A stretch of 38,660 nucleotides of DNA, taken from contig JASKKH010000016.1 of the NCBI GenBank assembly GCA_030154265.1, forward strand, positions 1-38,660. The letters are read 5' to 3'. The notes beneath the pieces were generated by a model. It was given only the letters and a program-made list of their open reading frames with translations, was not told where the DNA came from and did no database searches. Origin of the DNA: Clostridia bacterium (GTDB taxonomy: Bacteria; Bacillota; DSM-521; Neomoorellales; Neomoorellaceae). The translations under genes and the position numbers were made by a program. Positions 1-3,768 of the stretch are shown one piece after another; position 1 is the stretch's first letter; every line of letters starts with the position of its first letter.

Positions 1-13
1 GAGGTGTTTAATA

Positions 14-136
14 GTGAAACGTATCATTGTTTCATTAGCAGTTGGATTATTAACTTTAATTGCTTTTGCTAATGTTGCTGCTGCGAGTGGTTCCTGGGGC
101 TATCAGCCAGGAGTTCCAGAGAAGCTATTGAAGTAA
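14..136 (+). CDS. AgrD-like cyclic (thio)lactone autoinducer pro-peptide, serine variant
   Basis: A 40-residue peptide starting at GTG, with GAGGTG eight bases upstream at the very edge of the window. It has a basic start (VKR), a hydrophobic amphipathic segment at residues 4-24, a short polar core (residues 25-31, SGSWGYQ) and the tail PGVPEKLLK. The tail matches the proline/glutamate-rich C-terminal recognition region of clostridial AgrD precursors, which AgrB cleaves before ring closure. No cysteine is present, so any ring would have to be a lactone through Ser25 or Ser27 rather than a thiolactone; serine lactones are known in some staphylococci. AgrB would lie upstream, outside the window. 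The two membrane proteins that follow look like sensor membrane domains. It could instead be an inactive relic. The family call is fairly secure; activity is not. Confidence 0.72.
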   Translation: MKRIIVSLAVGLLTLIAFANVAAASGSWGYQPGVPEKLLK

Positions 137-154
137 TAAGAAAGGTTTACCAAA

Positions 155-403
155 ATGCAACAGAGGGAGAAAAAGAATTTTGTTAATCAAATTTTTAAGG
201 ACTTTTTAGTCCTAATTTTTTTGTATAGTATCCAAGGTATTTTAATTGTATTAATAATTTTTAATTCTTTTTCTTGTTGTCAAATGAACTCCAATATTAT
301 AGTTTTTGGACTAATTTTTGCAATTATAATATGGTTAGTAAGAAACATATGTAACTATCGTAATTATAGTTATGGGGTTCATAGTGTTATTCTAATATTT
401 TAA
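155..403 (+). CDS. truncated membrane protein, paralogue of the next gene
   Basis: An 82-residue hydrophobic protein with two predicted membrane segments (about residues 15-37 and 48-63). The start is ATG with AAAGG upstream. Its body aligns by eye with the first half of the protein at 475-966: LYSIQGILIVL against LYFVQGFLMVV, and IIIWLVRNICNY against IAIWIVRGIWNY, followed by a shared HS/HT-V-L pattern. It stops at VILIF, where the paralogue continues for about 80 more residues. It is therefore either a short partner protein or, more likely, a truncated duplicate. It follows the AgrD-like gene by 18 bases, so the two are probably co-transcribed. Function is unknown. Confidence 0.5.
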   Translation: MQQREKKNFVNQIFKDFLVLIFLYSIQGILIVLIIFNSFSCCQMNSNIIVFGLIFAIIIWLVRNICNYRNYSYGVHSVILIF

Positions 404-474
404 TAGGTCACATTGAGAACACCGTTTTGTGTTTGTTTTTAACCTTTATAAAGTAAATAGAAGGGTAGTTTATT

Positions 475-966
475 TTGGAAGACTTACGGGTTTTATTTTT
501 TTTATATTTTGTACAGGGATTTCTAATGGTAGTAACTGCTTTAAGGTTATTCGGTTATAGAAGTGATTTTAAGATTGTTATAAAAATCGGAGTAATTTAT
601 GGAATTGCTATATGGATAGTCAGAGGGATATGGAATTACTACCAGATACCGATATCTTTATTAACTCACACTCTTGTTTTAATGGTCATTTTTTCGTTTT
701 TGCTAAAAACAATAGGCAAAATAACTTGGAACAACGCAATAAGAGCCACATTGATAAATATTAGCTTACTTTTGTTAAGTGATTTTATAATTCTTCCTCC
801 ATTATTAAATTTTATTGAATTAGATATGACCAATGTTTTTAATAATCCTTGGATGCATATATTAATAGGTTATATAGAAAACATATTTTTGCTGCTTTTA
901 TTATTTTTAAATGTTGTTTTTGGCTTTAAATTTTCATTTAACATAGAGAAAGAATATAAACGTTAG
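475..966 (+). CDS. multi-pass membrane protein, sensor-domain-like, next to AgrD-like peptide
   Basis: A 163-residue protein made almost entirely of membrane segments (about residues 7-24, 32-48, 62-80, 92-112 and 128-150), ending in a short basic tail (EKEYKR). The start is TTG, chosen because AAGGG lies nine bases upstream. It has no histidine-kinase or DNA-binding domain. The arrangement recalls the membrane half of AgrC-type receptors, and stand-alone versions of such domains are plausible next to agr peptides in clostridia. That link is inference from position, not a recognised motif. The conserved-looking cores are YFVQGFLMV, IWIVRGIWNY, LTHTLVLMV and the acidic/aromatic YIEN. A receptor, immunity or export role would all fit. 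Confidence 0.55.
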   Translation: MEDLRVLFFLYFVQGFLMVVTALRLFGYRSDFKIVIKIGVIYGIAIWIVRGIWNYYQIPISLLTHTLVLMVIFSFLLKTIGKITWNNAIRATLINISLLLLSDFIILPPLLNFIELDMTNVFNNPWMHILIGYIENIFLLLLLFLNVVFGFKFSFNIEKEYKR

Positions 967-1028
967 CTCTAACTATATAATCTTAATTAAGACAACTTCA
1001 CATATTATAAATATCCTTTTGCTTAATT

Positions 1029-1052
1029 TATTTTCTAACAAGAAAATATTTC
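1029..1052 (+). terminator. possible weak terminator after the agr-like genes
   Basis: TATTTTCT pairs with AGAAAATA around a four-base loop (AACA), followed by TTTCT. The stem is A/T-only apart from one G-C pair, so its strength is doubtful. The rest of 967-1244 is AT-rich non-coding DNA ending in the speD promoter. Confidence 0.3.
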
Positions 1053-1167
1053 TACTATAAATTAAGGTATACTTTACATAAGTGTACTAAGTTATTTTTA
1101 TAAAAATTAAGTGAAAACAAGTGAAAAACGGTGATAATAATCCCTAAACCTTATAAGATATTTTTTG

Positions 1168-1197
1168 TTGACATTAAGGGGGTAGTACGGTTACAAT
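1168..1197 (+). promoter_or_regulatory. sigma-A-type promoter for speD
   Basis: A perfect -35 TTGACA (1168-1173) and a near-consensus -10 TACAAT (1192-1197) are separated by 18 bases. A start near 1204 would give a short leader of about 40 bases before the speD start codon, carrying AGGAGG at 1231-1236. Confidence 0.7.
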
Positions 1198-1244
1198 TGG
1201 ATTTGTTGAATTCATGTAAAATTTTATATTAGGAGGAATGATAA

Positions 1245-1622
1245 TTGCGCGCATTGGGCCGTCATGTGTTAGCAGAAATTTATGGATGCAAGTTCGAATA
1301 TTTAAACGACATAAAAAAAGTCGAAGAGATTATGGTAAACGCAGCTTTAGAAGCAGGTGCCGAAATTCGCGAGGTTTGCTTTCATAAATTTAGCCCTCAG
1401 GGTGTAAGTGGCGTGGTGGTTATATCTGAATCTCATTTGGCAATTCATACTTGGCCAGAATTAGGCTATGCAGCTGTTGATGTGTTCACATGTGGTGAGA
1501 AAGTAAACCCCTGGGATGCATGTAGATATCTAACTGAAAGGTTCCAAGCTAAAGAAGTTAGAGCTAATGAAATTGAACGAGGCGTTTTGGAACCCTCCCA
1601 GGCAACAGCGGTAAATATGTAG
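1245..1622 (+). CDS. speD: S-adenosylmethionine decarboxylase proenzyme
   Basis: This 125-residue protein is the short bacterial type of AdoMet decarboxylase, which supplies aminopropyl groups for spermidine synthesis. The self-processing site is clear: Glu62-Ser63 in SESHLAIHTWPE. Cleavage makes Ser63 the pyruvoyl group of the alpha chain. His68 and Cys83 (FTCG) sit at the positions expected for processing and catalysis in this family. Length is typical. The TTG start is favoured by AGGAGG eight bases upstream and by the family N-terminus (RALGRHVLAE). The gene is a single unit between a strong promoter and a hairpin terminator. No spermidine synthase lies in the window. Confidence 0.97.
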   Translation: MRALGRHVLAEIYGCKFEYLNDIKKVEEIMVNAALEAGAEIREVCFHKFSPQGVSGVVVISESHLAIHTWPELGYAAVDVFTCGEKVNPWDACRYLTERFQAKEVRANEIERGVLEPSQATAVNM

Positions 1623-1665
1623 GAGGGATATTTATTTTATTACCTACAACTAAAGGTAGTAGTTA

Positions 1666-1714
1666 ACAGGCCGTGTAGATCTTAAGGGGATACACGGCCT
1701 GTAGTATTTTTATT
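1666..1714 (+). terminator. terminator of speD
   Basis: A 12-bp perfect stem (ACAGGCCGTGTA with TACACGGCCTGT) encloses a 13-base loop and is followed by AGTATTTTTATT. Confidence 0.85.
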
Positions 1715-1817
1715 AGACAAACGTTGACAAGTACCAGCAGGAATAAATCATTTTAAATAGAATAAAAAATTGATATATATATTTTTATTTTATATTAATA
1801 ATAGGAGGGCTTTAATT

Positions 1818-2507
1818 TTGACTGCCCTATTTAAATTATTACAACCTGAGTTAGAGGAAGTCCGCCAACGTTTACACAAAGAAATAACCTTTCGCAAACG
1901 CTTTACTCCTGATTTTAATTGGCCTGCTTTAAGTGAACTTGATCAAAAATTTTTACCTACGTTAGTTTTAATTAGCGCAAATGCTAAAGTTTTTTTAAGT
2001 AAAAAAGCTCTTTCTCTGGCTACAATCTTTCAATTTATATTTTTAGCATCTTTTATTCATTGTAAGGCAGAGAAAAATATAGCTTTAGAGACACTTATGG
2101 GAGATTATTTTTATACACGCTTTTTTGATCTTCTATGTCGTGATGATAATATCGAATTTTTGGAGCCTCTCTCTAAAATGATTTGCCAAATTCATCTTCA
2201 AGCTAATAAACAAAATTGTGAGTTAGATATTAAAAAAACAGGTTCTGATAATAGTTTTAGTAAGGTATTCTTGGCTAAAGAGGCAGCATATTTAGGGAGT
2301 AAGCTAGGGCATGTCAGCTTAAAAGAAAGTAAGGTTTGGCAGGAAGTAGGCATATTATTAGGCAAGTTATGGGACAAACAACCTGTTACAACTCAAGCTA
2401 TGCATGCTATAGAGAAACTTACTTCCGGACAAGCTAAAAAGGTTTTAGGTGAATTTGTTTTATATTTAAGCAGCCAAATATCTGATAAAAAGGTTATTGC
2501 TTTATGA
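1818..2507 (+). CDS. degenerate polyprenyl-synthase-like protein lacking catalytic aspartates
   Basis: A 229-residue protein using TTG at 1818; the open frame reaches further up, but AGGAGG at 1803-1808 fixes this start. It resembles trans-prenyl diphosphate synthases in outline: the start LFKLLQPELEEVRQRL, then LATIFQFIFLASFIHC, then GDYFYTRFFDLL, which matches GDYLFARSLVLV of the intact synthase at 16556. Where active enzymes have HDDxxD, this protein has HCKAEKN (residues 79-85), and no second DDxxD motif is visible, so it should not condense isoprenyl units by itself. It may be the small regulatory subunit of a two-component heptaprenyl or hexaprenyl synthase, as known in Bacillus-type systems, or a repurposed all-helical protein. 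Its stop overlaps the next start (ATGA). Confidence 0.6.
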   Translation: MTALFKLLQPELEEVRQRLHKEITFRKRFTPDFNWPALSELDQKFLPTLVLISANAKVFLSKKALSLATIFQFIFLASFIHCKAEKNIALETLMGDYFYTRFFDLLCRDDNIEFLEPLSKMICQIHLQANKQNCELDIKKTGSDNSFSKVFLAKEAAYLGSKLGHVSLKESKVWQEVGILLGKLWDKQPVTTQAMHAIEKLTSGQAKKVLGEFVLYLSSQISDKKVIAL

Positions 2508-3714: not shown

Positions 3715-3768
3715 TTGCTTAAGATTGGCATAGATCCTGGTCATGGTGGTAGTGATCCTGATAATTAG
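3715..3768 (+). pseudogene. relic of an N-acetylmuramoyl-L-alanine amidase start
   Basis: After a Shine-Dalgarno-like GGGGTG, a TTG start opens 17 codons that read LKIGIDPGHGGSDPDN and then stop. IGIDPGHGGSDP is the N-terminal zinc-binding signature (first His) of the Amidase_3 family. Nothing else of the enzyme follows: a terminator-like hairpin begins two bases after the stop. This is best seen as the 5' end of a lost gene. The rest of 3554-3800 shows no other coding signal. Confidence 0.55.

Follow-up and report, generated by a model that had tools for sequence, protein, structure and literature searches.

A serine-type agrD gene beside remnants of an agr locus in a Clostridia bacterium

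The agrD gene and its predicted ring

As the window (the whole stretch of 38,660 nucleotides analysed here) begins with a gene for a short peptide that resembles an AgrD precursor and is cysteine-free over its full length, we were interested whether this is a genuine agrD, which residue would close the ring of its product, and whether the product is still matured. The following features were assigned to the gene:

1 to 6, + strand: ribosome-binding site of agrD, GAGGTG, from the sequence (GGAGGTG counting the preceding base on contig C49)
14 to 136, + strand: agrD, Ser-type, an intact ORF of 40 aa with a TIGR04223 match
86 to 100, + strand: predicted ring Ser25-Gly-Ser-Trp-Gly29, from the alignment with 138 other AgrDs and the S25-X29/Y30 geometry of the C. 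thermocellum peptide
101 to 133, + strand: C-terminal recognition tail YQPGVPEKLLK, from the AgrD alignment

The gene starts with GTG, and its product, MKRIIVSLAVGLLTLIAFANVAAASGSWGYQPGVPEKLLK, matched the NCBIfam model TIGR04223 (quorum_AgrD) with 32.2 bits (E 8.6e-8; curated cut-off 19 bits); a Pfam search of the product gave no match. With a profile made from 49 relatives, the window copy being excluded, the peptide scored 49.8 bits (E 8.5e-15), and the best of 44,127 ORFs in 50 shuffled windows reached 10.7 bits. Identity to the AgrDs of six related genomes (G006, G016, G007, G023, G058 and G054) was 55-68%, and to members of the Ser/Thr subfamily about 62-69%. Judged by its sequence, 14-136 is a genuine AgrD-family propeptide gene, as a previous sequence-only reading had proposed. 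The product is short and hydrophobic, as would also be expected of a chance ORF or an unrelated signal-peptide-like protein, but the passed cut-off, the identity of up to 68% to homologues from conserved operons and a score far above anything in shuffled sequence make such an origin extremely improbable.

To locate the ring position, AgrDs were anchored on the tail motif [YH][QE]P, with the nucleophile five residues before the tail. Ser25, not Ser27, was aligned to the ring-closing Cys of relatives, which agrees with the earlier proposal of a serine, and no cysteine, in this place. The predicted ring is thus SGSWG. Tyr30 would be the first residue of the removed tail, and a product containing SWGY, as had been suggested for detection by mass spectrometry, is therefore not expected. 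Among 50 distinct AgrDs, the majority of them from the bacterium's own class, the ring position was occupied by Cys (22), Ser (25) or Thr (3); this count admitted only C, S or T, and an unrestricted version added one sequence, an unrelated false hit. An AgrB was encoded upstream in 47 of the 50 (in one, G007, 1.9 kb off), and wherever an AgrB was found for a Ser- or Thr-type AgrD of this set, it had the His...Cys pair. Another 88 AgrDs, almost all of them from genomes in other parts of the phylum and placed by profile alignment with any residue allowed, had Cys (64) or Ser (24). Pooled, 139 AgrDs gave 85 Cys, 51 Ser and 3 Thr and no other residue, fractions that are only rough because both samples lean towards high-scoring matches. 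In this collection, most of the Ser and Thr types are encoded behind an AgrB with the His/Cys pair.

The assumption that serine is rare outside a few staphylococci thus has to be abandoned: 51 of 139 AgrDs carry it, and Ser lactones are proven in Clostridium thermocellum and for the Enterococcus faecalis peptide GBAP. Ser-type AgrD peptides are common across the phylum and no staphylococcal oddity. Close homologues with Cys in this place, named in the sequence-only reading as a refuting finding, are the exception: five of the six closest carry Ser or Thr with agrB in the locus; the sixth, from G054, has Cys. By alignment, a ring-position serine is nothing unusual in the branch of the window AgrD, which comprises Ser/Thr-type AgrDs of Moorellaceae and neighbours.

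The surroundings of agrD

In the six related genomes the gene order is agrB, agrD, a membrane protein of ~160 aa and a SPOB_a/HATPase kinase. The closest homologues are the Ser/Thr-type operons of five of them (G006, G007, G016, which is Moorella stamsii, G023 and G058), whose AgrDs are 62-68% identical to that of the window and which share an AAA[S/T]G core and the downstream membrane protein with it. These five relatives have kept the upstream agrB and the downstream AgrC-like kinase, whereas the window is without both; they have Glu at the position of the window's Gly33, and in three of them Thr takes the ring position. Around the window agrD the following was found:

1 to 93, + strand: stretch identical over its 93 bases to the end of contig C49, joining the window to upstream DNA with an agrB stump
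155 to 441, + strand: membrane protein, first copy, a pseudogene (tblastn, alignment)
475 to 966, + strand: membrane protein, second copy, an open reading frame of 163 aa with five predicted helices of membrane-spanning length

Position 1 of the window is the first base of contig C4, and its upstream neighbourhood was read from C49 through the shared bases. There, C49:18653-18745 holds 31 codons of agrB, reading VFSSLLGMI*QLLTITPLGFKFVDSFNTTLK with an internal in-frame stop. The stretch resembles the C-terminal part of AgrB in the subfamily (45-48% identity, E 7e-6 to 3e-5) and ends 26 bases before the start of agrD. As the stump sits where relatives have agrB, the join of both contigs is supported. 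An agrB immediately upstream, which the sequence-only reading had asked for, is therefore present as this stump, but not as an intact gene. The sole intact AgrB of the genome, encoded on contig C13, has the His/Cys pair and its own Cys-type AgrD and shares about 32% identity with AgrB of the subfamily; a second agrB of the subfamily type was absent from the genome's contigs. Further upstream on C49 lies an HD-domain (HD-GYP-like) gene (L043:5499-6253) with a c-di-GMP-I riboswitch (RF01051, 72.5 bits) immediately 5' of it. An IS-element remnant between this gene and the stump was considered and rejected, the 82-aa ORF found there (L043:6381-6629) having no Pfam, NCBIfam or plasmid-DNA match.

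Downstream, the first membrane-protein copy consists of an N-terminal part (ORF 155-403) and residues 126-143 in another frame (388-441), with the middle deleted. The second copy has no Pfam family, and no solved structure related to its model (mean pLDDT 86) came up in a fold search. This copy is followed by an S-adenosylmethionine decarboxylase gene and not by a kinase; neither a kinase nor a kinase remnant was found in window positions 1-2000, and the relatives' kinase type gave only partial matches, or matches to general or different kinases, elsewhere in the genome. With the AgrC kinase and a functional AgrB of its own both absent, the locus does not hold a complete agr system (agrBDCA-like). 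A scan of genome contigs for relatives of the membrane protein detected two loci only. The open copy shares 46-48% identity with its counterparts in genomes of the same family, which is below the 61% between the proteins of G007 and G023, G023 being outside the class. HemL of the window genome reaches 72-79% identity to the same genomes, and the agr locus has therefore evolved fast. This suggests, on the level of sequence comparison, relaxed constraint on the open copy, although transfer between lineages could distort the comparison too.

The recognition tail has retained the pattern YQPxVPxKLxK. Directly behind its first Pro, 133 of 139 AgrDs carry a charged residue (Glu, Lys, Asp or Arg), and only the window AgrD has Gly here (Gly33, codon 110-112); the position is not strictly invariant, with A, N or T in single homologues. 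Gly33 aligns with what we take to be position 36 of Staphylococcus aureus AgrD, and not with D33 or E34, so that its effect is uncertain. Cleavage of the S. aureus tail by AgrB reportedly requires D33 and E34 (PMC10196373), and E34 and L41 are described as essential to its recognition and processing (PMC10482373).

Known signals and the fate of the peptide

The nearest precedent is the C. thermocellum AgrD Clo1313_2818. Its leader is predicted to be cut between A24 and S25, giving a lactone S25-F29 followed by Y30 and P35, and LC-MS/MS of culture fluid confirmed the cyclic peptide; the gene is described as not being in an apparent agr operon (PMC5322536). The window AgrD is similar in Ser25, the five-residue ring to position 29 (predicted for the window), the tail start at Tyr30, Pro35 and the lack of residues outside the ring. 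It differs at the ring end, with Gly29 instead of Phe29, and no agrB stump is described for C. thermocellum in the sections considered (PMC5322536). Two further Ser lactones, the AIP of Staphylococcus pseudintermedius and GBAP of E. faecalis, are listed in reviews (PMC3673130, PMC12312760). In S. pseudintermedius Ser also replaces Cys in AgrD and the ring is a lactone, but the AIP is a nonamer with residues outside the ring and comes from a complete agr operon. GBAP likewise is a Ser lactone, derived from the AgrD-like propeptide FsrD via an AgrB-like enzyme; unlike the window peptide it has 11 residues with a nine-residue ring, and fsrD lies within fsrB. The agrBD on C13 belongs to the same genome and encodes a member of the same AgrD family (37 bits), but has Cys at the ring position, an intact agrB and a related membrane protein 5' of agrB, and is followed by a diguanylate cyclase(-like) gene. 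Pentapeptide thiolactones that lack an exotail undergo rearrangement to plain cyclic peptides, and an O-to-N shift was measured on a related compound (PMC11297923); a product of the window gene, in which Ser25 would have a free N-terminus and such a shift would be expected, might therefore occur as a plain cyclic peptide.

From homology, the catalytic pair of AgrB and the C. thermocellum precedent, AgrB of the relatives would cleave ahead of Tyr30 to release the tail, and a five-residue lactone would be formed through the hydroxyl of Ser or Thr. In the window genome, with the agrB stump interrupted by a stop, one membrane-protein copy broken, the kinase gone and the conserved charge of the tail lost, the peptide would no longer be matured, or only inefficiently by the AgrB from C13. 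We therefore consider it likely that the window agrD is a Ser/Thr-type gene left over in a largely decayed agr locus, its peptide being unmatured or inefficiently matured. Of the two outcomes named in the sequence-only reading, a relic is thus favoured for the window copy, and the Ser lactone for its relatives, but not for this copy.

Against a relic, the frame, the start and the ribosome-binding site of agrD are all intact, and the peptide has kept its 62-69% identity to the Ser/Thr subfamily. Orphan status is also no proof of death, because the ring of Clo1313_2818 is made outside an apparent agr operon (PMC5322536), and residual function in trans is possible. The peptide could then be processed by the AgrB from C13, which is intact with its His/Cys pair, to a Ser-closed SGSWG lactone that serves as a second signal or acts on other receptors. 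We regard this as rather unlikely, as that AgrB is distant from those of the subfamily (about 32% identity, see above), AgrB proteins are partly specific for their AgrD (PMC12312760), Gly33 lies in the recognition tail, and the neighbouring genes are decaying with no adjoining kinase. As the assembly breaks at agrD, a strain variant with intact upstream DNA is possible too: both contigs stop right at agrD and share an overlap of 93 bases, as at a branch of the assembly graph, and no such overlap was seen at the other end of the window. The decay upstream would then be confined to one strain, and part of the population would have a complete agrB-agrD. The chances of this are slim, since an agrB of the subfamily is found on no other contig of the assembly, and the kinase is missing downstream, on the window side and outside the break. 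The decayed locus with an orphan agrD therefore is the preferred explanation, and the window copy itself is of little import other than as a pointer to its Ser/Thr-type relatives, among which the Thr-type is the better lead.

The loci of relatives

Thr-type AgrDs were found in Moorella stamsii (L015/L045), G007 (L017/L047) and G023 (L014/L044), with the predicted rings TGPWS (M. stamsii among them) and TGFWS. Each of these three loci has an AgrB with the His/Cys pair; Thr-closed lactones are possible. A literature search for Thr closure in AgrD-type signals, judged by titles, revealed no apparent case, and a search for Moorella with AgrD no paper. If Thr closure were confirmed, AgrB would tolerate nucleophiles of three kinds, and Ser/Thr-closed signals would escape any method that relies on thiolactone trapping. 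In G007, an IS110-type-transposase-like gene (L047:2523-3800) lies between agrB and agrD, which are ~1.9 kb apart. A sporulation sigma-K-like gene is located just 5' of agrB in M. stamsii (L045:849-1526) and, with one gene between, 5' of agrB in G006 (L046:3692-4369), and a link of agr to sporulation is possible. G006 also has three AgrD matches within ~9 kb (C1:1543700-1552425), with the Ser-type subfamily copy ~34 kb before them.

Against the staphylococcal AgrC model, the G054 kinase aligns from position 139 onward only, and the length of the membrane protein is about that of the missing part, which would be consistent with an AgrC split into a sensor (the membrane protein) and a short kinase; neither a sequence nor a fold match of the membrane protein to AgrC was found. 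A tentative picture for the whole subfamily, which we hold with some doubt, is that it makes exotail-free five-residue lactones closed by Ser or Thr and may sense them by a split AgrC, with the window copy as a decaying offshoot. The ~160-aa membrane protein, which has no Pfam family, occurs at dozens of agr loci (e.g. L061, L023, L125 and L102), 5' of agrB in many Cys-type loci and 3' of agrD in the window's subfamily. It was present at 33 of 85 Cys-type and 4 of 51 Ser-type loci. A SPOB-type kinase was encoded upstream in 28 of 51 Ser-type and 5 of 85 Cys-type loci (Fisher p 2e-10, with kinship and unequal flanks uncontrolled).

Elsewhere in the window, a very short ORF at 3716-3768, which ends in LKIGIDPGHGGSDPDN and a stop, resembles the extreme N-terminus of an N-acetylmuramoyl-L-alanine amidase and is probably a gene fragment.
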